The position numbers were made by a program, and so were the translations under genes. Source: Thioalbus denitrificans (GTDB lineage Bacteria > Pseudomonadota > Gammaproteobacteria > DSM-26407). Taken from it: a stretch of DNA of 64,000 bases. The stretch covers positions 364,650 to 428,649 of the forward strand of contig NZ_QPJY01000001.1 of NCBI RefSeq assembly GCF_003337735.1, given 5' to 3'. Below are positions 11,383 through 60,403 of the stretch, piece after piece. Numbering within the stretch: position 1 is the first letter of the stretch; the number at the start of each line of letters is the position of its first letter. The notes under the pieces are model-generated. The model saw nothing but the letters and a program-made list of their open reading frames with translations. It was not told the DNA's origin and searched no databases.

Positions 11383-11388
11383 GGATGG

Positions 11389-40273: not shown

Positions 40274-40292
40274 CCTTTCTTCTCCCCCGCGC

Positions 40293-40883: not shown

Positions 40884-41264
40884 GTTTCCTCCTTAGCGAG
40901 TCGTGCATTGCCGCTTCGGGCGTCATGTCCGTTGGCGGCATTATTGTGGACCGGTTCTCCCCGGTCGGTGGTTGTGCGGAGCGGTCAACGAACCGTTCCG
41001 CCTGCTCACTTTCAGATTCCGCTCCGCTCATGGAGCGAGCGGGAAGTCGAAATACCCATGCAATCAGCAGGCCAAATTGCCGTGACCGGTTGCCATCGCG
41101 CCACCGGGCGGCTTTGGACTCTGGCGCTTGCCCATGTCGGTCCGGGATTGTCACAAAATCGGCCATATGTCATCTGACACTTCATGACATTACTGCCGCA
41201 ATCTGGCAGGTGTCAGGCTTTGTGTCAGGTTCCGGCTTTCCCCGCCGACCGTTCCCACCCGGTC
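40884..41264. promoter_or_regulatory. fccAB upstream region with a TGTCA/TGACA cluster
   Basis: 381 bases without a gene between fccA and the ankyrin gene. Between 41149 and 41227 there are six TGTCA or TGACA pentamers: 41149, the palindrome TGTCATCTGACA at 41168-41179, 41185, 41211 and 41223. This density in about 80 bases of GC-rich DNA suggests an operator. It is about 270-340 bases from the fccA start, and I could not pick a convincing promoter. The small ORFs across this stretch look accidental. Confidence 0.35.
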
Positions 41265-42227: not shown

Positions 42228-42251
42228 GGTCGGACTTCTCCCGTTGGCGGT

Positions 42252-42851
42252 TCAGTTGCCGGCGGCCGCGGGCTCGTCGGGCTCCAGTGGCTCCTCGTGG
42301 GCGATGCCCGTATGGCAGTCGATGCAGGTCTGGCCCTCGTCGAGCGCCTTTTCATGCTTGCTGCGGGCCGAGCGCCCCTGGAGGCTGAGGTCCATCCGCT
42401 CGAAGGCGTGGCAGTTGCGGCATTCGCGCGAGTTGGATGCCTTCATCTTCGCCCACACCCGGGAGGCCATGTCCCAGCGGTGGGCCTCGTACTTCTCGGG
42501 CGTGTCGATGGTGCCGATGATCTCGTGGTAGATGTCCTTCGCCGCGAGGATCTTCGCCTTCATCTTGGGAAAGAAGGGCTTCGGAACATGGCAGTCGGCG
42601 CAGCCGACCGTGGCGCCCACCCGGCCCAGGTAGTGGGGGGTCTCCTTGAACTCCTCGAAATTGGTCTGCATGGAGTGGCAGGAGACGCAGAACTCGGTCC
42701 GGTTGGTGGCTTCCAGTACGGTCATGAAGCCGCCGAAGAACAGGGCCCCGGCCAGGAACGCCAGGAGTGCGACGACCAGCAGGCGCTTGCGGGTGAAGGT
42801 AAACGTACGGCGTTTCTCGATCGGGCTGTTGGGTTCAGCCATATTCTCCAT
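42252..42851 (-). CDS. NapC/NirT-family tetraheme cytochrome c
   Basis: 199 aa with one N-terminal membrane anchor (LLVVALLAFLAGALFFGGFM) and four CxxCH motifs: CVSCH, CADCH, CRNCH and CIDCH. This is the layout of quinol dehydrogenases that link the quinone pool to periplasmic reductases. No dedicated reductase gene sits next to it; the partner is unknown. An ATG at 42842 would drop three residues. The stop is 24 bases before the ankyrin gene start, so the two are likely co-transcribed. Confidence 0.9.
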   Translation of the reverse strand: MENMAEPNSPIEKRRTFTFTRKRLLVVALLAFLAGALFFGGFMTVLEATNRTEFCVSCHSMQTNFEEFKETPHYLGRVGATVGCADCHVPKPFFPKMKAKILAAKDIYHEIIGTIDTPEKYEAHRWDMASRVWAKMKASNSRECRNCHAFERMDLSLQGRSARSKHEKALDEGQTCIDCHTGIAHEEPLEPDEPAAAGN

Positions 42852-44045: not shown

Positions 44046-44059
44046 TTGATCCAGGTCAA
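44046..44059. promoter_or_regulatory. FNR-type box upstream of the radical SAM-ubiU-ubiV genes
   Basis: TTGATCCAGGTCAA matches the FNR/CRP-family consensus TTGAT-N4-ATCAA at nine of ten positions. It lies 128 bases before the first gene of the unit, in the only gap large enough for its promoter. Confidence 0.6.
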
Positions 44060-45172: not shown

Positions 45173-46168
45173 ATGGAACTCGTCTGCCCCGCCGGCAATC
45201 TGCCGTCCCTGAAGGCCGCCGTGGACAACGGCGCCGATGCCGTCTACATGGGCTTCCGGGACGATACCAACGCGCGCCACTTCGCCGGGCTGAATTTCAC
45301 GCCCGAGAAGATGCACGAGGGCATCCGCTACGCCCGCCAGCGCGGTCGGCGGGTGTTCCTGGCCCTGAACACCTTTCCCCAGCCCGGCGGCTGGGACCGC
45401 TGGCGGGCGGCGGTGGACCGGGCCGCCGAGCTGGGCGTGGACGCCCTCATCATCGCTGACCTCGGGGTGCTGGACTATGCCGCCGAGCGCTGGCCGGAGC
45501 TCGCCCGCCACCTCTCCGTGCAGGGCTCGGCCACCAACTACGAGGCGCTGCGTTTCTATCAGCGCCATTTCGGCATCCGCCGGGTGGTGGTGCCGCGGGT
45601 GCTGTCCCTGCCCCAGGTGGCGCACCTGGTGGAGAACAGCCCGGTGGAGGTGGAGGTATTCGGCTTCGGCAGCCTGTGCGTGATGGTGGAGGGGCGCTGC
45701 CTGCTCTCCTCCTACGCCACCGGCCAGTCGCCCAACACCTACGGCGCCTGCTCCCCGGCCCACGCGGTGGAGTGGCGGGAGATCGGCCAGGGCCTCGAGA
45801 CCCGCCTCGGCGGGGTGCTGATCGAGCGCTACGGGGAGGGCGAGAACGCGGGCTATCCCACCCTCTGCAAGGGTCGCTTCCGGGTCGGACAGGACACCTT
45901 CCATGCCATCGAGGAGCCCACCAGCCTCAACACCCTGGAGCTGCTGCCGCAGCTGGTGGCCGCCGGCGTGGCGGCGGTGAAGATCGAGGGGCGCCAGCGC
46001 AGCCCGGCCTACGTGGCCCAGGTGACGCGGGTCTGGCGCGCCGCCATGGACGCCTGTGCCCGCGACCCGGAGCGCTACCACAGCCGCCCCGAGTGGGATG
46101 CCGAGCTGGCGCGGGTGTCCGAGGGCGCGCAGACCACCCTCGGCGCCTACCACCGCCCGTGGCAGTGA
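45173..46168 (+). CDS. ubiU: O2-independent ubiquinone biosynthesis protein UbiU (U32 family)
   Basis: With UbiV and UbiT, supports ring hydroxylation of ubiquinone precursors without O2. The 331-aa U32 protein starts MELVCPAGNLPSLKAAVDNG. It carries the four cluster-ligating cysteines in SLCVMVEGRCLLSS, NTYGACSPAHAVEW and YPTLCKGRF. It was formerly called YhbU and misnamed a peptidase. It lies 26 bases behind the radical SAM gene. Its TGA stop is the start of a GTGAGGGG-type repeat. Confidence 0.95.
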   Translation: MELVCPAGNLPSLKAAVDNGADAVYMGFRDDTNARHFAGLNFTPEKMHEGIRYARQRGRRVFLALNTFPQPGGWDRWRAAVDRAAELGVDALIIADLGVLDYAAERWPELARHLSVQGSATNYEALRFYQRHFGIRRVVVPRVLSLPQVAHLVENSPVEVEVFGFGSLCVMVEGRCLLSSYATGQSPNTYGACSPAHAVEWREIGQGLETRLGGVLIERYGEGENAGYPTLCKGRFRVGQDTFHAIEEPTSLNTLELLPQLVAAGVAAVKIEGRQRSPAYVAQVTRVWRAAMDACARDPERYHSRPEWDAELARVSEGAQTTLGAYHRPWQ

Positions 46169-46288: not shown

Positions 46289-47194
46289 ATGAAATCTCCC
46301 AAGCTTTCACTCGGCCCCATCCTCTACTACTGGCCCCGCGAGCAGGTGTTCGACTTCTATGCCGAGGCGGCGGAGTGGCCGGTGGACATCGTCTACCTGG
46401 GCGAGGCGATCTGCTCCAAGCGTCGCCTGGTGCGCACGGAGGACTGGCTGGAGCTGGCGCAGCGGCTGGAGGCGGCCGGCAAGACGGCGGTGCTCTCCAC
46501 CCTGACGCTGCTGGAGGCGGAGTCGGAGCTCATCAGTCTGCGCCGTATCTGCAGCGACGGCCGGTTCATGGTGGAGGCCAACGACCTGGGCGCGGTGAAT
46601 CTGCTGGAGGGGCGGCCCTTCGTTACCGGTCCGTCGGTGAACGTCTACAATCAGCGCACCCTGGCGCGGTTGGCGGCCCTGGGCCTGAAACGCTGGGTGC
46701 TGCCGGTGGAGCTCTCCCGGGACACCCTGGCGGAGATGCAGGCGGCCCGCCCGGAAGGGGTGGAGACGGAGGTGTTCGCCTGGGGGCGGCTGCCCCTGGC
46801 CTACTCGGCCCGCTGCTTCACCGCGCGGGCCCACAACCTGCCCAAGGACGACTGCCAGTACCGCTGCCTCGACTACCCCGACGGACTGACCCTCTCCACC
46901 CAGGAGGACCAGCGCTTCCTCGCCCTCAACGGCATCCAGACCCAGTCGGCCCAGACCTTCAGTCTCCTGGGGCAGCTGCCGGATCTGCAGCGCCTGGCCG
47001 TGGACGTGCTGCGCATCAGCCCCCAGTCACGGGGCACCGGGCAGGTGGTGGCCGCCTTCCGGGAGTGCCTGGAGGGGCGGCGCGATCCGGTGCAGGCCGC
47101 CGCCGCGCTGGAGGCGCTGATGCCGGCCGGGCCCTGTGACGGGTACTGGTTCGGGGAGTCGGGGATGGTCGCCCATGGGGGCGGGGCGGTCTAG
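46289..47194 (+). CDS. ubiV: O2-independent ubiquinone biosynthesis protein UbiV (U32 family)
   Basis: Partner of UbiU; the two form a heterodimer, each with a [4Fe-4S] cluster. The 301-aa protein begins [20 protein letters not shown]. The cluster cysteines appear in [12 protein letters not shown] and in [20 protein letters not shown] with a following C. It was formerly YhbV. It is on the same strand as ubiU, 120 bases downstream with the repeat between. Confidence 0.95.
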
Positions 47195-47763: not shown

Positions 47764-48243
47764 TCAGGCGAAGCGTTCGAACAGGCGGGAGGCGCGTTCG
47801 AGGGTACCCATGAGGGGCTGCAGCCGCTCGGGGGGCTCGTAGGCGTCGAGGAAGTTCTTCACGTAGAGTCCCAGCTCGGTGTCGCCGCCCAGGCGCAGCC
47901 GCCGGTTGAAGAACAGGGTGTCCGGGTCCTCGCGCCGACTGGCCAGCAGCAGGAAGTCGTAGGTGTCGCCCTCGATGGTGAGATCGTGGGGGCGGCGCTC
48001 GTCGGCGGGACGCAGCCGGCCCCGTTCGAGGGTGAAGCAGAGCCGCAGGCGCAGGTCGTTGACCCGGATCCGCACCACCCGACCCTCCAGGAACTCCAGC
48101 TCGCCATCGCGCAGGGCGGTGGCGAAGATCCGGTTCAGGGCCAGGCACACCGTGGTGCTGTGGGTGGCGGTGGGCACCAGCCCCACCGGGAAGGTGAGCA
48201 GGCGCGACAGGCGCGGGGGCGGTTTGCGGGTCTGCATGTCCAT
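47764..48243 (-). CDS. ubiT: Ubiquinone biosynthesis accessory factor UbiT (SCP2 domain)
   Basis: Lipid-binding SCP2-fold protein needed for O2-independent ubiquinone synthesis. 159 aa from the ATG at 48243 (MDMQTRKPPPRLSRLL). It has the hydrophobic CLALNRIFATAL, then LEFLEGRVVRIRVNDLRLRL, HDLTIEGDTYDFLLLASRRE and FFNRRLRLGGDTELGLYVKN. The last two blocks are typical of YhbT. The open frame upstream belongs to no protein. A perfect FNR box lies 38 bases upstream. Confidence 0.92.
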   Translation of the reverse strand: MDMQTRKPPPRLSRLLTFPVGLVPTATHSTTVCLALNRIFATALRDGELEFLEGRVVRIRVNDLRLRLCFTLERGRLRPADERRPHDLTIEGDTYDFLLLASRREDPDTLFFNRRLRLGGDTELGLYVKNFLDAYEPPERLQPLMGTLERASRLFERFA

Positions 48244-48280: not shown

Positions 48281-48294
48281 TTGATCCCGATCAA
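48281..48294. promoter_or_regulatory. Perfect FNR-type box upstream of ubiT
   Basis: TTGATCCCGATCAA is an exact match to TTGAT-N4-ATCAA. It lies 38 bases before the ubiT ATG and touches the sirB2 stop codon. The symmetrical site could be bound by FNR/Anr or another family member. Confidence 0.75.
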
Positions 48295-48680
48295 TGGATG
48301 CCGAGAGGAAAGGGATCGCGGGTGAGGGCGACGGCCACGATGTAGCCGAAGGTGGCCAGGGCGGCCACCCAGAATCCGATCCGGATCCGTCGGCTGCGGC
48401 CGCGCCGCAGGGCGATGCTGCCGAGGATGATGTAGACCAGCAGCCCGGTCACCTTGGCGGTGAGCCAGTCGTGCACCCCGGGGTACTGGTGGCTCAGCAG
48501 CGCCAGGGCGACGGCGCTGGCCAGCAGCAGGGTATCCACCACGTGCGGGGCGACGCGCACCCAGCGCCGGTCCAGCAGCGCCGAGCCGCGCATCATCCAG
48601 GCACCGCGTACCACGAACCCGGTCAGGGAGAGGATGACGCAGGTGACATGGACACCCTTCAGGGCCAGGTAGAGGCTCAT
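48291..48680 (-). CDS. SirB2-family membrane protein
   Basis: 129 aa with four membrane helices. It begins MSLYLALKGVHVTCVILSLTG and continues GVHDWLTAKVTGLLVYIILGS and RIRIGFWVAALATFGYIVAV. The pattern matches SirB/SirB2. Conserved histidines in helices 1 and 2-3 (KGVHV, APHVVD, LSHQY) suggest heme binding, which is inference. The start overlaps the end of the NnrS-like gene by four bases. Confidence 0.88.
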   Translation of the reverse strand: MSLYLALKGVHVTCVILSLTGFVVRGAWMMRGSALLDRRWVRVAPHVVDTLLLASAVALALLSHQYPGVHDWLTAKVTGLLVYIILGSIALRRGRSRRIRIGFWVAALATFGYIVAVALTRDPFPLGIH

Positions 48681-50023
48681 GCCGCGGGAATCTCCCCGGC
48701 GGCGGGAGCCAGCAGCTGCCGATTGACGCGCCGGTAGCGCCGGGCGGCCCGCCCCAGCCCGAATCCGAGCAGCCCCCAGGAGGCGGCCAGGGCCAGCCCG
48801 GCCGGCCGGCTCGCCAGCGCCGGCCACAGCGGCGCCAGGGCCAGGAGTCCCAGCCCCGCAACATAGATGCGCAGCTGCCAGCGGGTGGTGCGCTCGGGCA
48901 GCAGCTCGCGCAGGTTGGGCACGGACACCTCCACCCGGCCCAGGGCGAGCTGGCGGTTCTGCAGATGGAACCAGGCCAGGAAGGGAACGATCTTGATCAT
49001 CATGCCGTTGAGGATGGGCACGGCGAAGCCGAGCAGGTAGCTCCCGCCCAGCCACAGGGGGTAGGCGGGATGGGCGGCGAACCCGGGCCATACCCGCCCC
49101 GCCAGCCACAGCGTCACCGCAATGGCGAGGCCCGCCAGTCCCAGCCGCCACCAGGCGAGGCCGGCATCGGGCAGGGGCCGGCGCCGACGCTTCTGCAGCC
49201 GCACCGTGAAGGCCGCGAACAGCAGCAGGGCGGCGCCGGCGGTCGCGGCGGCGGAGACCGGCAGGGCCGATGGGATCCGCTCCGCCGCGGCCAGCCGGTA
49301 GAGCACGCTCCACAGCAGGAGCAGGGCGAACAGGGCGGTGGTGAGGTGGCGGCGCAGCCGGAGCGGATACTCCGGCGTGAGCTGGAACATGGGCAGGGCC
49401 TGGTAGGCCACGCCCAGCACCAGCAGTCCCACCCAGCCCAGCAGCCCCCAGGCCAGGTGGACGTCGGTGAGCGAGCGCAGGAACAGCAATCCCGGGATTC
49501 CGCCCCAGAACAGCGCCAGCCCGACGCCCAGGGTCGCGGTGACGGCCAGGGCGATGACCGCCAGGCGCATGGCCACCACGGTCGGGTTGGCGCTCCCGGC
49601 CCGGGCCAGGCCCCACCCCAGTGCAGTGACGAATACCAGGAACGCGCTGCCCAGCAGGGCGGCGGCGGCCAGCGACCAGGGCCCGCCGTCGGCCAGGAAG
49701 CCGATGGCCAGCGCCAGCGTGCCGCCGCCCAGCAGCAGGTGGGTGACGCGCCCGACGGCCACCGCGCCGAGGACCCGGGTGCCGGCCAGTACCGGGAGCA
49801 TCTGCAGCAGCGCCCCGCACATGGCCTGGGTCACGAGGCCGAGGGTGATCAGGTGGGTGAAGGCGAGCACGCCGGGGGTCCAGCGTCCGGCCAGCAGCGC
49901 CGGTCCCTGCAGGGCCAGCAGCAGCCCCGCCAGGACCCCGAACAGGGGGGCGGAGAGCAGGAACCGGAACGGAACCGAGATGGGTGGCGCCTGGTCCAGC
50001 GAGAGATTGCCCGGAAACAGCAT
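48677..50023 (-). CDS. NnrS-like polytopic membrane protein
   Basis: 448 aa with about twelve membrane helices and several buried His/Met residues, e.g. GVLAFTHLITLGLVTQAMCG, LLQMLPVLAGTR, SLTDVHLAWGLLGWVG and KIVPFLAWFHLQNRQLALG. It resembles heme/copper-containing membrane proteins of the NnrS and cytochrome-oxidase-I-like type found near denitrification and NO-response genes, but I cannot assign a reaction. It overlaps sirB2 and lies just after the DUF2249 gene. Confidence 0.7.
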   Translation of the reverse strand: MLFPGNLSLDQAPPISVPFRFLLSAPLFGVLAGLLLALQGPALLAGRWTPGVLAFTHLITLGLVTQAMCGALLQMLPVLAGTRVLGAVAVGRVTHLLLGGGTLALAIGFLADGGPWSLAAAALLGSAFLVFVTALGWGLARAGSANPTVVAMRLAVIALAVTATLGVGLALFWGGIPGLLFLRSLTDVHLAWGLLGWVGLLVLGVAYQALPMFQLTPEYPLRLRRHLTTALFALLLLWSVLYRLAAAERIPSALPVSAAATAGAALLLFAAFTVRLQKRRRRPLPDAGLAWWRLGLAGLAIAVTLWLAGRVWPGFAAHPAYPLWLGGSYLLGFAVPILNGMMIKIVPFLAWFHLQNRQLALGRVEVSVPNLRELLPERTTRWQLRIYVAGLGLLALAPLWPALASRPAGLALAASWGLLGFGLGRAARRYRRVNRQLLAPAAGEIPAA

Positions 50024-50047: not shown

Positions 50048-50317
50048 TCAGGTGCGTCGGGCGGGCATGGCGTCCTCCGCCAGGCGGTCGCCGTCGCGCC
50101 AGATGTAGACCTCGACGCCGTTCGTGTCGTCGATGTCCGTATGCCAGCGGAAACCGGCCTGTTCCAGCAGCGGATAGGCGAGCAGGGGTTCCCGATGGAG
50201 CCTGACATGCAGGAAGTCGCCGGGCCGCACCCCGGGCAGTTCGCCGAGGATGCGCTCGAGGGGTTCCGGGGGCATCAGTTCGGAGAGATCCATGAACCTT
50301 TCCATCGCCGCGCCCAT
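50048..50317 (-). CDS. DUF2249-domain protein
   Basis: 89 aa of the DUF2249 family, a small TusA-like alpha/beta fold common beside hemerythrin and NO-related genes. Visible blocks are LSELMPPEPLERILGELPGV, GDFLHVRLHREPLLAYPLLE and FRWHTDIDDTNGVEVYIWR. An internal ATG at 50305 (MERFMDLSELMPPEP) is an alternative start. It lies three bases behind the hemerythrin gene, so the two are one unit with the NnrS-like and SirB2 genes. Confidence 0.83.
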   Translation of the reverse strand: MGAAMERFMDLSELMPPEPLERILGELPGVRPGDFLHVRLHREPLLAYPLLEQAGFRWHTDIDDTNGVEVYIWRDGDRLAEDAMPARRT

Positions 50318-50320
50318 CGC

Positions 50321-50755
50321 TCAGACAGCGTCCATCTGCGACAGCACCTGCTCCATGCTGTCCTGCAGGGCGCGGTCGGCCATCGGGTAGAGCATCTGTT
50401 CCTCCTTGGCATTGTGCTGCTGCATCACGATGAGCAGGGTCTCGGACAGGCCCAGGTAGCGGTCCCGGTCCCGGGCGGTGATGGCCGTGGCCATGTCCTC
50501 CTTGAGCTGGCGCATCTGGCCGTGTTCCATGCGCATCACCCGGGTGGGACCCATGGTCTGCCCGGTGCGGGCCTCGTATTCGGGGAACATCACCTCTTCC
50601 TCCATGCGGAAATGGTGCTCCAGGGCGTCATGGAAGGCATTGAAGGCGCTTTCGCCGGTCAGCCAGTCGCCCTGGGCGACAGCGGTTTCGGCCTCGGCGA
50701 ACAGGGAGTCGCAGCGCTGGTGATCGTCACCCAGGACCTGGCTGATGGTGTGCAT
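50321..50755 (-). CDS. Hemerythrin-domain protein
   Basis: 144 aa with the diiron ligand pattern of hemerythrin: LGDDHQRCDSLF, FHDALEHHFRMEEEVMFPEY, MRMEHGQMRQL and QQHNAKEEQMLYPMADRA. Candidates for function are O2, NO or iron handling, as in YtfE/RIC-type proteins. It is much shorter than YtfE and lacks the N-terminal ScdA domain. The start at ATG 50755 is chosen over 50839 because the extension would cover the FNR-like box at 50820. Confidence 0.9.
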   Translation of the reverse strand: MHTISQVLGDDHQRCDSLFAEAETAVAQGDWLTGESAFNAFHDALEHHFRMEEEVMFPEYEARTGQTMGPTRVMRMEHGQMRQLKEDMATAITARDRDRYLGLSETLLIVMQQHNAKEEQMLYPMADRALQDSMEQVLSQMDAV

Positions 50756-50819
50756 TGGCAACCTCGTGCGGATTGGAAGGATTCGCTGCCAACGGTAACG
50801 GCAGAGGCGCCCGGCGTGT

Positions 50820-50833
50820 TTGACCTTCATCAA
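50820..50833. promoter_or_regulatory. FNR/Dnr-type box upstream of the hemerythrin unit
   Basis: TTGACCTTCATCAA matches TTGAT-N4-ATCAA at nine of ten positions. It lies 65 bases before the hemerythrin ATG, a spacing that fits an activated promoter for the hemerythrin-DUF2249-NnrS-like-SirB2 unit. Confidence 0.6.
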
Positions 50834-50890
50834 GCCCATTAATGTGCCCCGGGCGGGTGCCGGGAGGCTCCGGCCCGAGCGTATATTCCC

Positions 50891-51064
50891 ACAAATTTGT
50901 TGCGGTAGTTCACGGAATTTGTTAAGTCTTTGTGGGCGTCCGGAGCCCTGCTAGCGGCGGCGGCGCAGCGCAGGATGCGCGGTGCAGTGGTCCGCGAACC
51001 TGTGACAATTGGCGTGAAGCGGAAATAAAAAGCGAATAACGAGTTGAAAAAACAACAATTCGCT
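50891..51064. promoter_or_regulatory. Upstream region of the heptaheme cytochrome gene
   Basis: This AT-richer gap holds the palindrome ACAAATTTGT (50891) and two AATTTGTT direct repeats at 50894 and 50916, 22 bases apart (two helical turns). Nearer the gene is an imperfect hairpin, AGCGAAT at 51031 with ATTCGCT at 51058. The last lies 35 bases before the ATG and could sit in the leader. A GTGACA and ATAAAA pair 17 bases apart near 51003 is a weak promoter guess. Confidence 0.35.
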
Positions 51065-51098
51065 CCGCTCACACTGCAATCCAGATGGAGGAGGGGTT

Positions 51099-53540
51099 AT
51101 GAAGCTACGCTACGTGGTAATACCCGCCCTCGTGCTCGCGGTGGGGGTTGCCTGCAGCCCCAGGCACACGGGGGAGGGCGCGGCCGGCATGGCCGCGCCG
51201 AGCGCCGGGACAGCGGCAAACACCGGGGTCGGCAAGGACGGCCCGAACAAGCCCAAGAACGACTACAACATCAGCATCAACTACGAGCTGGGCATGCACT
51301 GCACCGGCTTCGACTTCAGCTACTGCTGCGTCCTGCCGCCGTACAATTCCATCCAGGCCCAGGTCATCAAGACCGCCCGCGGCGACAAGAAGTGGCCGGA
51401 GGTGGTGGAGGCCGACCCCGAGGACCACACGGTGCTCAAGGATGGCCGCAAGCGGTTCAAGCTGGCCTACGGCCACATCGACAACACCTACTCCGAGGGC
51501 TCCAAGCTCGCCTACTGGAACGTGCCCTATGACGTGAACGGCGACGGCAAGTACGGCGACAACGAGAATGTCGCCAACGCCTACTTCACCCACCTCTACG
51601 TCTACAAGGATCTCAAGGGCACCAACCCCAAGGGCACCAGCAAGGACAGCGAGAAGCTGTTCGTGGGCATGCAGATCCCGGTGCCCCAGGACAACGGCCC
51701 CGCCGGCGCCGCCGCGCCGAGCCCGATGAAGGGCGGCTTCCTGCACTACACCGGCGAGGAGGGCACCATCGTCTACACCAAGTCCCCGGTGCTCGACAAT
51801 GTGCCCATCGTGCTCACCAACCCGGGCATCTGGGATGCCCTGGGCCTGCCGCTCACGCCGTTCAACGACAGCGCCGCGGCCAAGAACCCGCTGACCCTGG
51901 TGGAGAGCGACATCCAGCCGTTCCAGGAGGCCTGGGTGAGCCTGCTGGATGCGGATTCCGGCGAGCCGGTGATCGACAGCCACACCGGCAAGCCGGTGAC
52001 CTTCGTCGGCACCAACCCCATCGACATCCCCAACTGCGCCAACTGCCACGCCAGCAAGACGGCCAACGGCAGCAAGTACAACCTCTACAAGGGGGAGTAC
52101 GCCTTCTGGAAGGGGCTCGGGGCCAGTGACTGGATCGCCAGCCTGAAGGCCACCTCCGTCTCCATCCTGGAGATGCACGACGACAAGAACGGCACCAGCT
52201 TCCTGAAGAACTACCGCCAGGGCACCCGCGACATCACCAACCGCCTGGGCCGCGACCCGGTGCTGTGCCAGAAGTGTCATGCCGACAACGTCATCGGCGT
52301 GCTCGCCTCGAAGAAGATGAAGAACAAGAGCGGCAAGGAGATCCAGGTGCCGCCGCTCACCCAGGCGATCCACACGGTGCACCAGACCAAGGCGCCGCTG
52401 CCCGATGCCGAGGGGCGCACCGCCAGCTGCCAGGGCTGCCACCCGGCCCACCGCCAGGACGGCAAGATGGACGATTACCCCATCACCAAGGACGGCAAGA
52501 ACGCCTATGCCGAGGGTGACAACCGCGATGCCTCCGGCGGCTGCTACGTGGGCCGCGACGTGCACGCCAACCGCAACAAGGACAAGGACGGCGCCGGCAC
52601 CAAGGAGTACCTCAACCCGGTGGGGCAGTGGCTGCAGGCCAACGTCTCCGGCATCGGCAACGGCAAGGGCGGCAAGGGCCTGTGGTGCACCAACTGCCAC
52701 AACCAGCTCTCCCGCGAACTCTACCAGCGCGACAACCTGGAGAACGCCTTCAAGCAGACCGGCCAGACGCTGCGCGACAAGCCGCTCAGCGAAATCGCCG
52801 CGGCCATCGGCGTGAGCCAGCGTGAGCTGGAGGAGAAGTACCTCGATCCGAAAGTGGTGCTCAACGGCAAGGGCGAGGATACCCCCGGCAAGTCCGGCAT
52901 CCTCCTCACCTGGGCCGAGAAGCGCACCGTGCCGGACATCGCCGTCATCGCCCTGCAGGGCAACGGTCCGCTGGTCTCCAAGGATGCCGACGGCGACATC
53001 AACGTCTCCATCCTGTCGGCCAACCCGGCGGTGGATCCCGCCTCCCTCAAGCTGCCCAAGGGCGCCACCGGCGCCGCCGCGGTGCCCTATGACGCCGCCA
53101 CCCATGGCCGCGACTACTGGCTCTCGCCCGGTGCTCCCCACTGCGCCGACTGCCATGCCGCGCCCTTCGTGGAGGGCCAGGGCGGGGTGGCCTATCCCAT
53201 CAACCAGCCCGGCAAGTACAGCCTGATGCGCTACTCCAAGGGCCATGCGGGACTGGCCTGCCAGACCTGCCACGAGTCCATCCACGGGCTCTACCCGGTG
53301 ACCTCCGATACGGACGTCACCAGCTACCGGCAGGCGGCCCAGTACAATCCCGATGGGTCCCACGGACCGCTGAAGTGCGCCTCCTGCCATGTGACCAACA
53401 AGGCCGGGGTCCCGCTCATCGCCGATGACGAGGAGCACGTCTGGGAGGGCAAGCCCATCCTGAAGGACTTCGAGGCGGCGGTTGCGTGGATGCACGCCAG
53501 TGCGCCCGATCTGGGTGGCAAGATCCCGGATCTCGACTAG
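51099..53540 (+). CDS. Heptaheme c-type cytochrome, probable lipoprotein
   Basis: 813 aa. An N-terminal hydrophobic signal ends in VGVAC, a probable lipobox, so the protein may be lipid-anchored. Seven CxxCH motifs are present: CANCH (about residue 313), CQKCH (390), CQGCH (444), CTNCH (530), CADCH (682), CQTCH (721) and CASCH (760). The first 300 residues lack hemes and form a beta-rich region with an odd Cys cluster, MHCTGFDFSYCCVLPPYN. I do not recognise a characterised relative. PpiC and TlpA-type genes follow, and a terminator-like hairpin lies at 53556. Role in extracellular or periplasmic electron transfer is inference. Confidence 0.88.
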   Translation: MKLRYVVIPALVLAVGVACSPRHTGEGAAGMAAPSAGTAANTGVGKDGPNKPKNDYNISINYELGMHCTGFDFSYCCVLPPYNSIQAQVIKTARGDKKWPEVVEADPEDHTVLKDGRKRFKLAYGHIDNTYSEGSKLAYWNVPYDVNGDGKYGDNENVANAYFTHLYVYKDLKGTNPKGTSKDSEKLFVGMQIPVPQDNGPAGAAAPSPMKGGFLHYTGEEGTIVYTKSPVLDNVPIVLTNPGIWDALGLPLTPFNDSAAAKNPLTLVESDIQPFQEAWVSLLDADSGEPVIDSHTGKPVTFVGTNPIDIPNCANCHASKTANGSKYNLYKGEYAFWKGLGASDWIASLKATSVSILEMHDDKNGTSFLKNYRQGTRDITNRLGRDPVLCQKCHADNVIGVLASKKMKNKSGKEIQVPPLTQAIHTVHQTKAPLPDAEGRTASCQGCHPAHRQDGKMDDYPITKDGKNAYAEGDNRDASGGCYVGRDVHANRNKDKDGAGTKEYLNPVGQWLQANVSGIGNGKGGKGLWCTNCHNQLSRELYQRDNLENAFKQTGQTLRDKPLSEIAAAIGVSQRELEEKYLDPKVVLNGKGEDTPGKSGILLTWAEKRTVPDIAVIALQGNGPLVSKDADGDINVSILSANPAVDPASLKLPKGATGAAAVPYDAATHGRDYWLSPGAPHCADCHAAPFVEGQGGVAYPINQPGKYSLMRYSKGHAGLACQTCHESIHGLYPVTSDTDVTSYRQAAQYNPDGSHGPLKCASCHVTNKAGVPLIADDEEHVWEGKPILKDFEAAVAWMHASAPDLGGKIPDLD

Positions 53541-53555
53541 TCGGTCATTCCGGCC

Positions 53556-53588
53556 GGGGCGGGGCCTGCGGGCTCCGCCCCACCTTTT
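53556..53588 (+). terminator. Probable terminator after the heptaheme cytochrome
   Basis: GGGGCGG pairs with CCGCCCC with an inner GCC/GGC extension across one mismatch, followed by ACCTTTTCC. The T run is short, so readthrough into ppiC is possible. Confidence 0.55.
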
Positions 53589-53706
53589 CCGCGCCGGGCA
53601 GCCGCCCTGCGCATCTTCACGGCCTGTTTGCCTGCCCGCATCCGCCACCGTTCACGACCTCAGGCTCGGATGCGGCGGAAACGGGCAGGGCTGGAGCGAA
53701 TCATCG

Positions 53707-54981
53707 ATGATGAATGCAAAGCAACGAATCGGCCGCCGGCTGGCGGCACTGCTGTTCGCGGCGGCGTTCGCCGCACCGGCGGCCGCCCAGGTGCTGGTCA
53801 CCGTGGGCGACTACCCGATCACCGGCAAGGCGCTGGAGGAGGCGCTGTCCAGTTCGCCTTTCGCCACCCAGTTCCCCGCCATGGACGAGGCCGACCAGGC
53901 CTACCTGCGCGGCGACCTGCTCAAGCGCCTGGTGGCCTCGCGTCTGCTCTATCTCGAGGCCAAGTCGCAGGGCCTCGATGTGAGCGAGGCGTTCCGGCGG
54001 GAGCTCGCCGAGTACCGCATCGCGCTGCTGTACCGGGCCGCCATGGATCGCCTGCGCGCGGCGGTGGCCCTTCCCGAGCAGACCGCCGAGGAGCTGCGCG
54101 CCACCTATCAGGGTGACGCCGATGCCCTGGCCGCCGCCAGATCCCAGCTCCGGGGCGAGCAGTACCGGCTCCGGCGGGCGGAGTATCTGGCCGGGCTGCG
54201 CACTGCCGCCAAGGTGGTGGTGCACGACGACCGCGCCGCCTGGGGAGCGGCGCCGGAAACGGTGCTGGCCGAGGGGGAGGGCATTGCGGTCCGGGCCGGC
54301 GATCTCGATCTCGGCGCGGAGAGCGATACCCCGCCAGGCAACGAGCGGATGCGGGAGCTGCTCGATGAGCGCATCGACCTGCTGCTGGCCGCCCGCGATG
54401 CCGAGGCCGCCGGCGTGGACGTGGGCGAACGGCTCGAGGCGTTCCGCGCGGAGCGCCTGCCGGCACTGCAGATGGAGCGGATGGTGCGCACCTGGATTCC
54501 CGACGAGGGGGTGGTGCGGGACTACTACGCCTCGCACCAGGCGCTGGGCACCATCCCCGAGCGGCGCCGGGTGGGGCAGATCGTATTGGCCTCGCGGGCG
54601 GAGGCCGAGGCGCTGCGCAGCCGCATCCTCGCCGGCGAGAGCCTGTTCGAGCTGGCCCGGGAACACTCCATCGACACCTACGGCAGGGAGCATGCCGGGG
54701 ACATGGGCTGGCTCAAGGCGGGCACCGGGATGCCGGAGCTGGAGCAGGCGCTGGCCGAACTGCCCGACAACCAGGTCAGCGCGGTGGTGGAGTCGCCGAA
54801 GGGCTTCCACCTGCTCATGGTCACCGACCGCCGCCCGGGCCGCCAGCTGGAGTACGGCGAGGCGCGCGACCGGGTGAGCCAGGCGCTGGTGGCCGAGCGG
54901 ATGGCCGCCTACTTCGAGGAGCTGCAGTCGCGCTATGCGGTGGAATGGACGCTGCCGCTGCAGCAGGATGCGCCGCAGTGA
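53707..54981 (+). CDS. Periplasmic PpiC-type peptidyl-prolyl isomerase (SurA-like)
   Basis: 424 aa. A signal peptide (LAALLFAAAFAAPAAAQ) is followed by an N-terminal SurA-like helical region with VLVTVGDYPITGKALEE and a long charged middle. One parvulin domain covers about residues 280-370, from RRVGQIVLASRAEAEALRSR to GDMGWLKAGTGMPELEQALA and VVESPKGFHLLMVTDRRPG. ATGs at 53707 and 53710 are both possible. It overlaps the TlpA-like gene by four bases. Paired with that gene, it may help fold or mature the upstream heptaheme cytochrome. Confidence 0.88.
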   Translation: MMNAKQRIGRRLAALLFAAAFAAPAAAQVLVTVGDYPITGKALEEALSSSPFATQFPAMDEADQAYLRGDLLKRLVASRLLYLEAKSQGLDVSEAFRRELAEYRIALLYRAAMDRLRAAVALPEQTAEELRATYQGDADALAAARSQLRGEQYRLRRAEYLAGLRTAAKVVVHDDRAAWGAAPETVLAEGEGIAVRAGDLDLGAESDTPPGNERMRELLDERIDLLLAARDAEAAGVDVGERLEAFRAERLPALQMERMVRTWIPDEGVVRDYYASHQALGTIPERRRVGQIVLASRAEAEALRSRILAGESLFELAREHSIDTYGREHAGDMGWLKAGTGMPELEQALAELPDNQVSAVVESPKGFHLLMVTDRRPGRQLEYGEARDRVSQALVAERMAAYFEELQSRYAVEWTLPLQQDAPQ

Positions 54982-55496
54982 GGCGCGGGCTGATCCGGCG
55001 GGTGGTCCTGGTGGCCGCCCTGTTCAGCTGCAACGGGTGGGCGGCGGCCGCCGGGCCGGCGGCCCCGCCCCTGAGCCTGCCCGACCTGGACGGTGCCAAC
55101 CACCGGCTCCAGGAGTGGCGCGGCTCGGTGCTGGTGGTGAATTTCTGGGCCAGCTGGTGCCCGCCGTGCATCCATGAGATCCCGGACCTCGTCCGCTTCC
55201 AGGCGCGTTACGCCGAACGGGGGCTGGTGGTGGTCGGGGTGGGGGTGGATGCCGTGCGCCCGCTGGGCAACGTGCGGCGCAGCCTCGGCATCAACTACCC
55301 CGTGCTGGTGCTGGACGAGGCCGACTCGCCCGCCCTGCTGGCCGAATGGGGCAATCACGACGGCTTCATCCCCTACACGGTGGTGGTGGACCGGGACGGG
55401 CGGGTGCGCTACACCCACCGCGGCGTGCTGGACGGGGAAACCTTCAACGAGCAGGTGGCGCCGCTGCTGGCAGGCAGCGGTGAAGGACAGGGCTGA
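54978..55496 (+). CDS. TlpA/ResA-like periplasmic thioredoxin
   Basis: 172 aa from the GTG at 54978, which overlaps the ppiC stop (GTGA). A short signal segment (RVVLVAALFSCNGWAAAAG) precedes a TlpA-type thioredoxin domain with the active site VVNFWASWCPPCIHEIPDLV. The cis-Pro region is GFIPYTVVVDRDGRVRYTHR. Such proteins reduce heme-binding CxxC pairs before heme attachment, which fits the upstream multiheme cytochrome. A longer ATG start at 54945 is less likely. Confidence 0.9.
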   Translation: MRRGLIRRVVLVAALFSCNGWAAAAGPAAPPLSLPDLDGANHRLQEWRGSVLVVNFWASWCPPCIHEIPDLVRFQARYAERGLVVVGVGVDAVRPLGNVRRSLGINYPVLVLDEADSPALLAEWGNHDGFIPYTVVVDRDGRVRYTHRGVLDGETFNEQVAPLLAGSGEGQG

Positions 55497-55692: not shown

Positions 55693-56670
55693 TCACACGG
55701 CCTGGTAGTAGATGTTCTGCGGATGGCGGGCCTGGGCGAAGAACAGCCAGCGCTCGGCCAGCAGGCCCAGGTACTGGACCAGCAGGGCCAGCACCAGGGT
55801 GGTGCCGGAGGCCACGGTGAGCCCGAGGGCCAGGAGCACCACCGGCACGGCGAAGACCAGCACCAGCATGACCCACTTCACCGAGCGCAGGAAGGCGGCG
55901 GTCCGGCCGTGGAAGAACTCCCGGGTGTTGAAGGAGCCGCCCATGGCGCCCTGGGCGGTCTGCCGGATCTGGGCGTGGCGCACGCCGATGGCCGTCTGCG
56001 GGGTGGACTTGTGCTTGATGCGGGCATTGCGGATGAGGGTGGTGCCGCGGGTCGCCAGGGCCAGCAGGGTGAGGATGATGGCCCAGCCGCCGAAGAAGGT
56101 GGTGAGCGCCGGCGCGGTCCAGGCGGCGAACGCGGCGGCGGCGGTGAAGCCCGAGGCGCCGCCGAGCAGCACGAAGTTCACCACCGTCAGCGGCGTGGCC
56201 CACTCCTGCAGGAAGCGGATGCAGGCGTAGATCATGCCGGTGGCGAGGAACAGGGCGAAGCAGGCCAGGGTGGCCAGCGCGCCGACGATCAGCGTCAGGT
56301 GGATGGCGATGCCCTCGCCCACGGTGCCCAGTACCGGGTCCCAGCCCAGGTAGTGCAGCCCCCCGTAGAGGAAGGTGAGGCCCATGAAGGCGGGCAGCAC
56401 GATCACCTCCCGCGAGAGCCAGGAGGTGCGCCACTGGCTGGCGGAGCGCCAGGCCCGTTCCGGCCGGCCCAGGTGGAACACCGAGGCGACCAGTCCCAGG
56501 GCCAGGAACACCAGGGCCAGCCCGCTGCCCAGGCCGTAGAACAGGCGGTCGTCCTGGGGCGGAAGCACCTCCAGCACGGAGTAGATCTGGCCGCTGTAGA
56601 GCGCCAGGAACAGGCCCTGGCCGACGCCGATGAGGGTGGTCAGGAAGATGACGGAAAAGGCAGGATGCAT
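55693..56670 (-). CDS. soeC: Membrane anchor subunit of sulfite-oxidising enzyme (DmsC-type)
   Basis: 325 aa with eight membrane helices, DmsC family. It starts MHPAFSVIFLTTLIGVGQGL and has the conserved loop HLGRPERAWRSASQWRTSWL that contacts the quinone site, and helix LTLLALATRGTTLIRN. It anchors SoeAB to the cytoplasmic side of the membrane and passes electrons to quinone. The start at ATG 56670 is chosen because the longer frame runs through the repeat before it. It is separated from soeB by the ACTCG repeat. Confidence 0.88.
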   Translation of the reverse strand: MHPAFSVIFLTTLIGVGQGLFLALYSGQIYSVLEVLPPQDDRLFYGLGSGLALVFLALGLVASVFHLGRPERAWRSASQWRTSWLSREVIVLPAFMGLTFLYGGLHYLGWDPVLGTVGEGIAIHLTLIVGALATLACFALFLATGMIYACIRFLQEWATPLTVVNFVLLGGASGFTAAAAFAAWTAPALTTFFGGWAIILTLLALATRGTTLIRNARIKHKSTPQTAIGVRHAQIRQTAQGAMGGSFNTREFFHGRTAAFLRSVKWVMLVLVFAVPVVLLALGLTVASGTTLVLALLVQYLGLLAERWLFFAQARHPQNIYYQAV

Positions 56671-56690
56671 TCGTAAACTCCAGGTTCCAG

Positions 56691-56762
56691 TTTCGAGTGA
56701 CGAGTAGCGAGGTCTCGGATCCGGCGCTTCCCCTCGCAACTCGTCACTCGTTACTCGCAACT
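56691..56762. repeat. ACTCG-type inverted-arm repeat abutting the soeB stop
   Basis: The left arm TTTCGAGTGACGAGTAGCGA (56691) is mirrored by the right arm of CTCGTCACTCGTTACTCGCA ending at 56762. The 7-nt units are ACTCGTC, ACTCGTT and ACTCGCA. The right arm runs into the soeB stop codon (CTA on the plus strand, 56761-56763). It splits the soe operon between soeB and soeC. Confidence 0.82.
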
Positions 56763-57492
56763 ACCAGCTGGTGACGTCGTCCAGCGACGGCTCGTCGAGC
56801 GCCGGGCGCGGCCGCGGGGCCTCCTTCTTGAGCGGGTTGTCGACCCGCACCAGCTCGTCGTCGTGGATGCGCAGGCGGGTCTTGCGCCGGGGCAGGTAGT
56901 GGTTGGCCGGCTTGGTGCCCCACTCGGGCATCAGCTGGTAGCCGCCCTCCTCGCGGATCAGCACCGAGACCTCGGACTCCGGATCGTGCACGTCGCCGAA
57001 CAGCCGCGCGTTGGTGGGGCAGGCGAGCACGCACGAGGGCTTGCGCTCGCGCTCCGGCAGCGACTCGTCGTAGATGCGGTCCACGCACAGGGTGCACTTC
57101 TTCATCACCTTCTGCTGCTCGTCGATTTCGCGGGCGCCGTAGGGGCAGGCCCAGGAGCAGTACTTGCAGCCGATGCACTTGTCGTAGTCCACCAGCACGA
57201 TGCCGTCCTCGGGCCGCTTGTAGCTCGCGCCGGTGGGGCACACCGGCACGCAGGGCGGCTCCTCGCAGTGCAGGCAGGATTTCGGGAAATGCACCGTCTC
57301 GGTGTGCGGGTAGGCGCCCACCTCGAAGGTCTGCACCCGGTTGAAGAAGGTGCCGGTGGGATCGGCGTCGTAGGGGTTGCGGTCGGTCATGGGCCCGGCC
57401 AGCCCGGAGGTGTTCCACTCCTTGCAGCTGGTCACGCAGGCACTGCAGCCGACGCACACGTTCAGGTCGATAATCAGGGCGAGCTGGGTCAT
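56761..57492 (-). CDS. soeB: Iron-sulfur subunit of sulfite-oxidising enzyme
   Basis: 243 aa, DMSO-reductase-type ferredoxin subunit with four [4Fe-4S] sets: DLNVCVGCSACVTSCKEWN, CLHCEEPPCVPVCPTGAS, CIGCKYCSWACPYGARE, and KKCTLCVDRIYDE with the later CVLACPTNARL. No signal peptide, consistent with a cytoplasmic location. It carries electrons from SoeA to SoeC. It starts ten bases after the soeA stop. Confidence 0.93.
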   Translation of the reverse strand: MTQLALIIDLNVCVGCSACVTSCKEWNTSGLAGPMTDRNPYDADPTGTFFNRVQTFEVGAYPHTETVHFPKSCLHCEEPPCVPVCPTGASYKRPEDGIVLVDYDKCIGCKYCSWACPYGAREIDEQQKVMKKCTLCVDRIYDESLPERERKPSCVLACPTNARLFGDVHDPESEVSVLIREEGGYQLMPEWGTKPANHYLPRRKTRLRIHDDELVRVDNPLKKEAPRPRPALDEPSLDDVTSW

Positions 57493-57502
57493 ATCCGTCT
57501 CG

Positions 57503-60403
57503 TCACGCTTTTTTCAGCAGGTTCTTGAACAGGCCGGTGCCGGCGCGGTAGGCCAGCCACTTGCGCAGCCGCCTTGGGGTTCCCGGCAGGGGCTTCATGG
57601 CCTCGAACTGGGGGAAGGTCTCCCGGGGCTCGGCGGCCTCGGCCTTGTAGACGCGCACGCGCACGTCGTACCAGCCCGCCTGCCCGGTGACCGGGTCGGA
57701 GTTGGACAGGTGCTCGCCCTCGGCGCTGGCGGGCAGCTCCTCGGAGATGAGGTGGTTGAGCAGGAAGCCCTTGCGCGATTCGTTGGCCTTCGGGGCGAGG
57801 TTCCAGGCGCCGGCGGCCTTGCCGATGGCGTTCCAGGTCCACACCGTGCCCGGCTCCACCGCCTCGCTGAAGCGGCACATGCAGCGCACCTTGCCCCACT
57901 GGGACTCCACCCAGATCCAGTCCCCGTCCTCGAAGCCGTTGGCCCGGCCCACGCTGGGGTGCAGGTAGAGGTGGTTGTGGGCGTGGATCTGGCGCAGCCA
58001 GGCGTTCTGGGAGTCCCAGGAGTGGTACATGGCCATGGGGCGCTGGGTCACCGCGCTCAACGGGTAGGTGTGGCGGTCGGTGAGCTGGGTCTCCAGCGGC
58101 GCGAAATAGAACGGCAGCGGATCGAAATGGGTGTCGATACGCTTGCGCAGCCGCTCGGGGGGCTGCTTGCCCTGCAGCTTGCCGCGCGCGGCGAGGCGGA
58201 ACTTCTGCAGCACCTCGGAGTAGATGTGCACGTTGATGGGCTCGGCGTAGCGGGTCAGGCGGTGCTGCTGGGCCCAGTCGAGGTAGCCGCGGTTCCAGTT
58301 GCGCATGTACTGATAGGAGCGCGGCAGCTCGTAGTGGAACACGCAGTTGTTCTTGGCGTACATCTCCCACTGGCCGGGGTTGGGCTCGCCCTTCATGAAC
58401 TTCTCGCCGCCCGTGCCGCGCCAGCCGGCGAGGAAGCCGATGCCGGAGCCCGGCTCGGTCTCGTAGTTGACGATGAAGTCGGGGTAGTCGCGGTACTTGC
58501 GCCGGCCCTGCTCATCCACGAAGGCGGGCAGCTGCAGGCGCGAGCCGAGCTCGATGAGCACCTCCTGGAACGGCTTGCACTCGCCGGTGGGCGGCACCAC
58601 GGGGATGCGCACCGAGTCCACCGGTCCGTCGAACTCCGAGATGGGCCGGTCGAGCATGGACATCACGTCGTGGCGCTCGAGGTAGGTGGTGTCGGGCAGC
58701 ACCAGGTCGGCGAAGGCGGTCATCTCCGACTGGAAGGCGTCGCACACCACCAGGAACGGGATCTTGTACTCGCCGTTCCCGTCCTTGTCGTTGAGCATCT
58801 TGCGCACCTCCACCGTGTTCATGGTGGAGTTCCAGGCCATGTTGGCCATGAAGATCATCAGCGTGTCGATGGGGTAGGGATCGCCGCGCCAGGCGTTGGT
58901 GATGGCGTTGTGCATCAGCCCGTGCACCGACAGCGGGTATTCCCAGGAGAAGGCCTTGTCGATGCGCACCGGGTTGCCCTGCGCGTCCACGAACAGGTCG
59001 TCGGGCTCCGCCGGCCAGCCCAGCGCCATCCCCGCCAGCGGCGTGTTCGGCTGCACCGCCTCGGGTCCGCGCGGGGTCTTGGCGCAGGGCGGTATGGGGC
59101 GCGGGAACGGGGCCTTGTGGCGGAAGCCGCCGGGACGATCGATGGTGCCCAGGATGCTCATCAGGATGGCGAGCGCCCGGATGGTCTGGAAGCCGTTGGA
59201 GTGGGCCGCCAGTCCGCGCATGGCGTGGAAGGAGACCGGGTTGCCGGTGATGGACTCGTGGTCCTTCCCCCAGGCGTCGGTCCAGGCGATGGGCAGTTCG
59301 ATCTTCTGATCGCGGGCCATCACGCCCATCTCGTGGGCCAGCTTGCGGATGGTCTCCGCCGGAATCCCGGTGATCCTGGCCGCCCACTCCGGGGTGTAGT
59401 CCTTCACCCGTTCCACCAGCAGCTGGAAGGCGGGCTTCACCGGGGTGCCGTCGGCGAGCTGGAAGCTGCCGAGCAGGTAGGGATCGGCGTCCGCGCTGCG
59501 GTTGACTACCGCCCGGTCGCTGTTGCGATCCCACCAGAGCTTGTTCTGGGGGTCGAAGCAGCCCTCCTCCTCGGGCACCTCGGCGCGCACGAACATCCCC
59601 TCCTCGGTGCTCGCCTGGTCCAGGTTCACCAGCTCCGGGGCGTTGGTGTAGTTCACCAGGAACTCACGATCATAGAGGCCCTGGTTGATGATCTCGTTGA
59701 TCAGCGCCAGCAACAGCGCGCCGTCGGTGCCCGGCTTGATGGGGATCCAGTCATCGGCGATGGCGGCGTAGCCGGTGCGCACGGGGTTGATGGCGATGAA
59801 GCGCCCGCCGTTGCGCTTGAACTTCGACAGCGCCATCTTCATCGGGTTGGAGTGGTGATCCTCGGCGGTGCCGATCATGATGAACAGCTTGGAGCGTTCC
59901 AGGTCCGGGCCGCCGAACTCCCAGAAGGAGCCGCCGATGGTGTAGATCATGCCGGCGGCCATGTTCACCGAGCAGAAGCCGCCGTGGGCGGCGTAGTTGG
60001 GGGTGCCGAACTGCTTGGCGAACAGGCCGGTGAGAGCCTGCATCTGGTCGCGGCCGGTGAACAGGGCGAACTTCTTCGGGTCGCTGGCGCGGATCTTTCC
60101 CAGCCGCTCGGCCAGGATCTCGAAGGCCTGCTCCCAGGCGATGGGCTCGAACTTCGCATCGCCCCGCTCGGCGCCCTGCTTGCGCAGCAGCGGCCGGGTC
60201 AGGCGCGCCGGAGAGTACTGCTTCATGATGCCGGAGGAGCCCTTGGCGCAGATGACCCCCTGGTTGAGGGGGTGATCCGGGTTGCCCTCGATGTAGCGCA
60301 CCTCCCCGTCCTTGAGGGTGACGCGGATGCCGCAGCGGCAGGCGCACATGTAGCAGGTGGTGTTCTTCACCTCGGTGTTGGGCTGGCGGGCGGGGTCGCT
60401 CAT
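57503..60403 (-). CDS. soeA: Molybdopterin catalytic subunit of cytoplasmic sulfite-oxidising enzyme
   Basis: 966 aa of the DMSO-reductase family. The N-terminal [4Fe-4S] ligands are CYMCACRCGIRV and a Cys in GVICAKGSSG. Molybdopterin-binding blocks include ALFTGRDQMQALTG, FIMIGTAEDHHSNPMKMALS and DLVLPDTTYLERHDVMSM, and the C-terminal domain LHPSVGRANGFEDGDWIWVE is present. There is no Tat signal, as in SoeA of purple sulfur bacteria and unlike thiosulfate or polysulfide reductases. Gene order soeA-soeB-soeC and the sulfide dehydrogenase elsewhere support sulfite oxidation, though a sulfur or polysulfide substrate cannot be excluded. Confidence 0.88.
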   Translation of the reverse strand: MSDPARQPNTEVKNTTCYMCACRCGIRVTLKDGEVRYIEGNPDHPLNQGVICAKGSSGIMKQYSPARLTRPLLRKQGAERGDAKFEPIAWEQAFEILAERLGKIRASDPKKFALFTGRDQMQALTGLFAKQFGTPNYAAHGGFCSVNMAAGMIYTIGGSFWEFGGPDLERSKLFIMIGTAEDHHSNPMKMALSKFKRNGGRFIAINPVRTGYAAIADDWIPIKPGTDGALLLALINEIINQGLYDREFLVNYTNAPELVNLDQASTEEGMFVRAEVPEEEGCFDPQNKLWWDRNSDRAVVNRSADADPYLLGSFQLADGTPVKPAFQLLVERVKDYTPEWAARITGIPAETIRKLAHEMGVMARDQKIELPIAWTDAWGKDHESITGNPVSFHAMRGLAAHSNGFQTIRALAILMSILGTIDRPGGFRHKAPFPRPIPPCAKTPRGPEAVQPNTPLAGMALGWPAEPDDLFVDAQGNPVRIDKAFSWEYPLSVHGLMHNAITNAWRGDPYPIDTLMIFMANMAWNSTMNTVEVRKMLNDKDGNGEYKIPFLVVCDAFQSEMTAFADLVLPDTTYLERHDVMSMLDRPISEFDGPVDSVRIPVVPPTGECKPFQEVLIELGSRLQLPAFVDEQGRRKYRDYPDFIVNYETEPGSGIGFLAGWRGTGGEKFMKGEPNPGQWEMYAKNNCVFHYELPRSYQYMRNWNRGYLDWAQQHRLTRYAEPINVHIYSEVLQKFRLAARGKLQGKQPPERLRKRIDTHFDPLPFYFAPLETQLTDRHTYPLSAVTQRPMAMYHSWDSQNAWLRQIHAHNHLYLHPSVGRANGFEDGDWIWVESQWGKVRCMCRFSEAVEPGTVWTWNAIGKAAGAWNLAPKANESRKGFLLNHLISEELPASAEGEHLSNSDPVTGQAGWYDVRVRVYKAEAAEPRETFPQFEAMKPLPGTPRRLRKWLAYRAGTGLFKNLLKKA

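Follow-up and report, generated by a model that had tools for sequence, protein, structure and literature searches.

What does a seven-heme cytochrome do beside a hemerythrin gene unit, and which of its neighbours belong with it? The locus lies in a 64,000-nucleotide stretch of Thioalbus denitrificans (contig NZ_QPJY01000001.1, positions 364,650 to 428,649), hereafter the window, with a G+C content of 69% and from a source genome of 4.1 Mb. The sole close relative found for this genome is a gammaproteobacterial metagenome-assembled genome (L004/L035). The gene in question encodes a heptaheme c-type cytochrome, here called CYT7. We find that CYT7 is strongly, and unexpectedly, tied to dissimilatory sulfur oxidation. 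This is its dominant association, which was missed by an earlier sequence-only reading that had joined CYT7 and the hemerythrin genes in one redox island. CYT7 and its two companions are encoded as follows.

51099-53540, + strand: CYT7, heptaheme c-type cytochrome of 813 aa, a probable lipoprotein (C19)
53710-54981, + strand: parvulin foldase of the PpiC/SurA type, 423 aa, with a Pfam rotamase match
54978-55496, + strand: thiol-disulfide oxidoreductase of the TlpA/ResA type, WCPPC, with a Pfam Redoxin/AhpC-TSA match

The TlpA start is probably the GTG at 54978, overlapping the PpiC stop, rather than the listed ATG at 54945.

Related loci comprise 32 from a species-representative collection and nine further stretches, three of these from genomes already included. 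Neighbours were counted over 40 CYT7 loci, the same-genus fragment L035 being excluded. Genes were called by a simple codon-usage script, and the key ones were checked against Pfam and NCBIfam. Among the 30 genomes reached from the CYT7 loci, dsrA is found in 26, aprA in 24 and either of them in 28. The Acidobacteria bin carries aprA together with an sHdr-like cluster.

A draw of 274 Gammaproteobacteria gives the same picture, 10 of its genomes having CYT7 and 93 having dsrA. Nine of the 10 CYT7 genomes are dsrA-positive versus 84 of the 264 others (Fisher p = 3e-4), as are 23 of the 27 genomes with any member of the wider superfamily described below versus 70 of the 247 others (p = 1e-8), although these p-values are optimistic because genomes of one class are related and not phylogenetically independent. 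By family, dsrA occurs in six of the seven families with CYT7.

The gene orders around CYT7 point the same way. One locus (L025) reads dsrH, dsrN-like, dsrC, dsrM, dsrK, dsrJ-like, dsrO, NrfD-type dsrP, a gene for a 264-aa protein and then CYT7, and in another (L029) CYT7 follows a gene for a DsrC-type protein. Nitrospinota have CYT7 behind dsrC-dsrMKJOP or dsrC, and Acidobacteria have it beside the sHdr-like cluster. TusA and DsrE-like genes adjoin it in L027 and L028. The order in L034 is CYT7, PpiC, TusA, two DsrE-like, GcvH/LbpA-like, ArsR-like regulator, HdrC-, HdrB- and HdrA-like. In a Gallionellaceae locus (L009), it is aprA, aprB, sat, diheme (c4) cytochrome, NirT, CYT7, PpiC, TlpA, SoeA-, SoeB- and SoeC-like, and SulP. 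Some labels, such as dsrN, dsrJ, DsrC of L029 and ArsR regulator, come from reading the sequence and not from a family search.

CYT7 has seven CXXCH sites, at residues 313, 390, 444, 530, 682, 721 and 760. Residues 1-312 have none and form a heme-free N-terminal part, and the lipobox ends at C19. The earlier description of an 813-aa probable lipoprotein with seven hemes and a heme-free N-terminal half is thus confirmed. No CX11-17CH site is found in the sequence. The heme-free domain bears an invariant LGMHC motif at residues 64-68. Its invariant stretch is YELGMHCTGFDF-x-YCC, with three cysteines, C68, C76 and C77, that belong to no heme motif. The fourth such cysteine, C482, is conserved across the superfamily. 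An alignment of 28 orthologues shows over seven conserved non-proximal His.

As read by eye, about 15 of 25 orthologues, this one included, have a lipobox, none with Asp at +2, and about 10 have a plain signal peptide. Hence, membrane attachment may help CYT7 but is not essential, which speaks against an obligatory surface role.

The 28 CYT7 sequences are 61–80% identical to the first, and all complete ones have seven hemes at identical places. The T. denitrificans protein shares the family features of seven CXXCH at fixed places, the YELGMHCTGFDF motif, C76-C77 and C482. The same genome also encodes a distant paralogue, which led to a nine-heme sister family. Its members are homologous to CYT7 end to end (21–29% identity) and keep LGMHC and the C482 position, but they have nine hemes and no C76-C77, and no PpiC or TlpA neighbours were seen in the seven loci inspected. 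In a maximum-likelihood tree, the seven- and nine-heme proteins form separate clades with 100/100 support. CYT7 is the seven-heme clade of an LGMHC-marked and apparently undescribed superfamily, with the nine-heme relatives as its sister clade.

The tree places the Gallionellaceae CYT7 among Chromatiaceae and Sedimenticola sequences and the Acidobacteria CYT7 among those of Nitrospinota, so transfer is likely. In the Gallionellaceae, CYT7-PpiC-TlpA-SoeABC-like forms one row beside sat-aprBA (L009), and the placement of its CYT7 among Chromatiaceae suggests transfer of a sulfur-oxidation cassette. In the Lamellibrachia barhami symbiont (L030, 8001-10456), CYT7 is three matching stretches in different frames, by decay or sequencing error. 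The nine-heme paralogue of the source genome is at 6490-8961 of L074, near a cluster of cytochrome b561-like, DHC-type and two-component genes that resembles Alvin_0020-0025 of Allochromatium vinosum. The latter genes are up on pyrite (PMC11267869).

No characterised enzyme was found to match CYT7. The searches made turned up no Pfam or NCBIfam entry specific to the superfamily, and Pfam gives generic multiheme models only. One of them, the MtrC/MtrF model PF22113, matches CYT7 just below its curated cut-off, and this match is generic because the same model also matches NirT and an octaheme cytochrome. Among PDB chains, phmmer and profile searches give marginal matches at most. The predicted structure has a mean predicted local distance difference test score (pLDDT) of 45 from the 28 close orthologues alone, and 67.7 with a predicted template modelling score (pTM) of 0.78 after the nine-heme relatives are added. 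Foldseek with the latter model finds nothing in PDB at E <= 0.001, and its top matches are beta-sandwich DNA-binding and p53-like domains with a TMq of ~0.1. The earlier view that the cytochrome is not recognisable as a known enzyme therefore holds in both homology and fold searches. No paper on a heptaheme cytochrome of this kind was found in the open-access literature, and a description in subscription papers is possible.

Three known multiheme systems invite comparison. The MccA/SirA octaheme sulfite reductases combine a large multiheme cytochrome, sulfur chemistry and a peptidyl-prolyl isomerase in the operon, and CYT7 likewise has a conserved PpiC directly downstream. However, they have eight hemes including a CX15-17CH site, while CYT7 has seven and none of that type, and CYT7 loci have NirT rather than NrfCD-type partners. 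The solved MccA/SirA members do not match CYT7 in the phmmer and profile searches of PDB chains.

The outer-membrane cytochromes MtrC, OmcA and UndA resemble CYT7 in being multiheme lipoproteins with a beta-rich heme-free part, and C68-X8-C77 of CYT7 resembles their CX8C motif. Unlike them, CYT7 has one heme-free N-terminal part, seven hemes and no porin partner. MtrC, MtrF and OmcA give no PDB sequence match to CYT7, and OmcA (4lmh) appears in Foldseek at E 1.5. The OmcS nanowire with its osc companion cluster also pairs a multiheme cytochrome with a PpiC-type foldase. OmcS, OmcE and OmcZ have no sequence or fold match to CYT7 in the PDB searches, the model used having a pLDDT of 67.7 and a pTM of 0.78.

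The sequence-only reading placed the foldase and the thioredoxin with the cytochrome as proteins that could mature it, and their companionship is upheld by conservation. By similarity, PpiC is found in 33 of the 40 CYT7 loci and TlpA in 23. Three more loci (L027, L028 and L034) have a parvulin-like open reading frame at the PpiC position, and two of those left without PpiC (L029 and L033) stop at a contig end. By analogy with the established families, PpiC would help the large CYT7 to fold, and TlpA would be a thiol reductant for its conserved extra cysteines or its heme-site cysteines. A second parvulin-like open reading frame in the window, at 10072-11388 on the - strand, is similar to PpiC of the CYT7 unit.

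A gene set that includes candidate electron partners of CYT7 lies about 8 kb away from it in the window.

42252-42851, - strand: tetraheme cytochrome of the NapC/NirT quinol-dehydrogenase type, found near CYT7 in 9 of the 40 loci
41265-42227, - strand: ankyrin-repeat protein with a signal peptide, found near CYT7 in 8 of the 40 loci
40293-40883, - strand: FccA-like diheme cytochrome c, with a homologue near CYT7 in about 14 of the 40 loci
38978-40426, - strand: FccB, the flavoprotein of flavocytochrome c sulfide dehydrogenase, present in the window

In seven loci (L005, L011, L015, L031, L033, L069 and L072), the neighbours of the CYT7 unit include NirT, the signal-peptide ankyrin protein, and FccA- and c4-type diheme cytochromes. 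Several CYT7 loci have the NirT, ankyrin and FccA-type homologues as a set, as in a flavocytochrome c locus, and such a set adjoins CYT7 in many gammaproteobacteria. The difference is that CYT7-PpiC-TlpA takes the place of FccB, which is found in none of the 40 related loci, and that CYT7 has no flavoprotein domain.

In a Methylococcales locus (L023, 5202-12088), the genes for COX2, COX1, a diheme cytochrome c, CYT7 and PpiC are all read the same way, and the CYT7 start comes 2-5 bases past the diheme cytochrome stop. Its genome has no dsrA or aprA match. This row with oxidase genes suits electron flow out of CYT7.

The window itself holds a complete fcc locus at 38978-42851 (NirT, ankyrin, FccA and FccB), which seems to correspond gene for gene to Alvin_1095-1092 of A. 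vinosum, in which we take Alvin_1094 to be the ankyrin protein. Those genes, annotated as a four-heme cytochrome, an uncharacterised protein, FccA and FccB, are up ~28- to 175-fold on pyrite (PMC11267869). A. vinosum is also reported to have one seven-heme cytochrome, with no annotated function (PMC11267869).

How might CYT7 serve sulfur oxidation? We favour, tentatively and somewhat short of calling it probable, that it is a dedicated heptaheme cytochrome of the dissimilatory pathway, periplasmic, often lipid-tethered and working in the oxidising direction. The heme-free LGMHC domain might bind sulfur in a reduced form, for example polysulfide, sulfane sulfur or sulfide. The seven hemes would conduct electrons to a diheme cytochrome, whose acceptor role is suggested by the established families, the outward flow being the more speculative part. 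The electrons would then go to a terminal oxidase or, via NirT, to the quinone pool, and NirT could work in either direction. CYT7 would do for its substrate what FccB does for sulfide in flavocytochrome c.

A bolder proposal, which we regard as rather doubtful, is that CYT7 is a new periplasmic sulfur-compound oxidoreductase whose catalytic centre is in the LGMHC domain or close to it. Matured by its own PpiC and TlpA, such an enzyme could supply the redox step that is missing between sulfur in the periplasm or in storage and the cytoplasmic Dsr or sHdr pathway, and Proteobacteria, Nitrospinota and Acidobacteriota would have it in common. The traffic of electrons and sulfur atoms between periplasmic sulfur and these cytoplasmic enzymes is poorly understood, and CYT7 offers a definite, testable candidate that keeps 60–80% identity in sulfur oxidisers of three phyla. 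With it comes a multiheme superfamily of seven- and nine-heme clades, for which no solved relative was found, and an example of a cytochrome accompanied by a foldase and thioredoxin cassette of its own.

Several points weigh against the favoured oxidising role, besides the relatedness that flatters the p-values. Only 9 of the 93 dsrA-positive genomes have CYT7, so the pathway can do without it, and the two CYT7 genomes without dsrA and aprA are methanotroph-like bins of Crenotrichaceae and Methylococcales. Upstream of CYT7, 4 of 28 loci have an exact FNR-type box and 7 of 28 have one with at most one mismatch, where 1.4 sites are expected, which hints at expression under low oxygen in some lineages. 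As a rule, NapC/NirT proteins oxidise quinol, and a reductase would fit that. Electrons would then run from quinol through NirT and the FccA-like diheme cytochrome to CYT7, which would pass them to sulfur, elemental or stored, to polysulfide, to tetrathionate or to some other oxidised compound, and perhaps mobilise stored sulfur. The exact FNR-type boxes and the nine loci with NapC/NirT suit such a reductase, low-potential bis-His hemes are plausible given the conserved extra His, and sulfur-storing dsr-bearing bacteria must activate their stored sulfur. Nevertheless, most CYT7 loci have no adjoining NirT, the operon-like Methylococcales row includes a terminal oxidase, and no solved multiheme reductase matches in sequence. 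We thus hold a reductase to be unlikely, if a serious contender. A reductase for an N- or S-oxide, the other suggestion of the sequence-only reading, is a possible role.

Two further roles are less likely still. CYT7 could be a nanowire subunit, or an electron conduit at the outer surface, that serves exchange with minerals or other cells and has PpiC for its assembly foldase, and the pairing of a multiheme cytochrome with PpiC does recall OmcS/OscH. The lipobox without Asp at +2 in about 15 orthologues agrees with this, as does the enhanced expression of larger multiheme cytochromes of A. vinosum on pyrite (PMC11267869). The outer-surface carrier of the sequence-only reading is nonetheless weakened to an improbable option, by the plain signal peptides of the other 10 or so orthologues and by the occurrence of CYT7 in intracellular tubeworm symbionts. 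MtrB/PioB (PF11854) has no match in the source genome and no such porin is recognised beside any CYT7. Moreover, OmcS, OmcE and OmcZ are absent from the PDB matches and OmcA comes just at E 1.5. Equally improbable to us is a nitrogen or other chemistry, with the sulfur link being indirect through facultatively anaerobic sulfur oxidisers. The methanotroph-like bins and the FNR-type boxes would fit it, as would the octaheme cytochrome (HAO-type Pfam family) that L016 and L024 encode near CYT7. However, no nitrogen-oxide gene is recognised as common to the CYT7 loci, and in three phyla CYT7 directly adjoins genes of the dsr, sHdr-like and apr kinds. The octaheme gene is divergent from CYT7 in both loci, at 2780-4234 of L016, for which the HAO-type Pfam family (Multi-haem_cyto) was tested, and at 4918-6330 of L024.

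The hemerythrin unit remains to be placed. It faces CYT7 across a control region, and the parts are these.

50321-50839, - strand: hemerythrin (PF01814), start probably 50755, a neighbour outside the CYT7 module
50048-50317, - strand: DUF2249 protein (PF10006), which travels with the hemerythrin
48677-50023, - strand: polytopic membrane protein with no family match, which travels with hemerythrin and DUF2249
50820-50833, + strand: FNR-type box TTGACCTTCATCAA, in the divergent control region

Pfam confirms the hemerythrin, the DUF2249 protein and, on the same strand, SirB2 (PF04247) as named by the sequence-only reading, while the "NnrS-like" label of the membrane protein finds no match in Pfam or NCBIfam. 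That reading bounded the island at 50321-55496, outside which the membrane protein and SirB2, together at 48291-50023, fall. The 343 bases that it gives for the shared region fit a hemerythrin start at 50755, and the listed start at 50839 leaves 259 bases. The FNR-type box is well founded, as the window has three perfect sites versus 0.02 expected and the box of the divergent region is conserved in the second genome of the genus. Its target may be the hemerythrin unit, CYT7 or both.

The divergent genes, their common control region and the box conserved within the genus would suit one co-regulated redox system, which we consider very improbable. Hemerythrin, DUF2249, membrane protein and SirB2 are in none of the 40 CYT7 loci, about 27 of them distinct with at least 4 kb upstream, and the hemerythrin unit adjoins CYT7 only in the same-genus locus (L035/L045). 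In the other direction, 28 of the 274 Gammaproteobacteria have the membrane protein, and in all 18 other-genus loci examined it accompanies hemerythrin and DUF2249 with no CYT7. Since neither unit accompanies the other outside the genus, they are independent modules that meet here, and the two-unit island is an ordinary chance juxtaposition. The cytochrome stands without the hemerythrin neighbours in most genomes, which dissolves the island but not the cytochrome-PpiC-TlpA trio. Co-regulation within this genus alone is possible. Widespread as the three-gene hemerythrin unit is, its membrane protein at 48677-50023 belongs to no Pfam or NCBIfam family.

Directly downstream of the CYT7 unit and convergent with it is a SoeABC-like complex.

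55693-60403, - strand: SoeABC-like complex as a whole
55693-56670, - strand: its DmsC-type anchor
56761-57492, - strand: its 4Fe-4S subunit
57503-60403, - strand: its molybdopterin subunit

A Soe-like enzyme was considered as an obligate partner of CYT7 and rejected, SoeA being in just 5 of the 10 CYT7 genomes of the draw (p = 0.18). Outside the window, SoeA adjoins CYT7 only in L009, and L028 has a distant molybdopterin protein.

Elsewhere in the window, two U32-family proteins at 45173-46168 and 46289-47194 (+ strand) look like UbiU and UbiV, and an SCP2-domain protein at 47764-48174 (- strand) looks like UbiT. By appearance, this set is for oxygen-independent ubiquinone synthesis, and FNR-type boxes are at 44046-44059 and 48281-48294.

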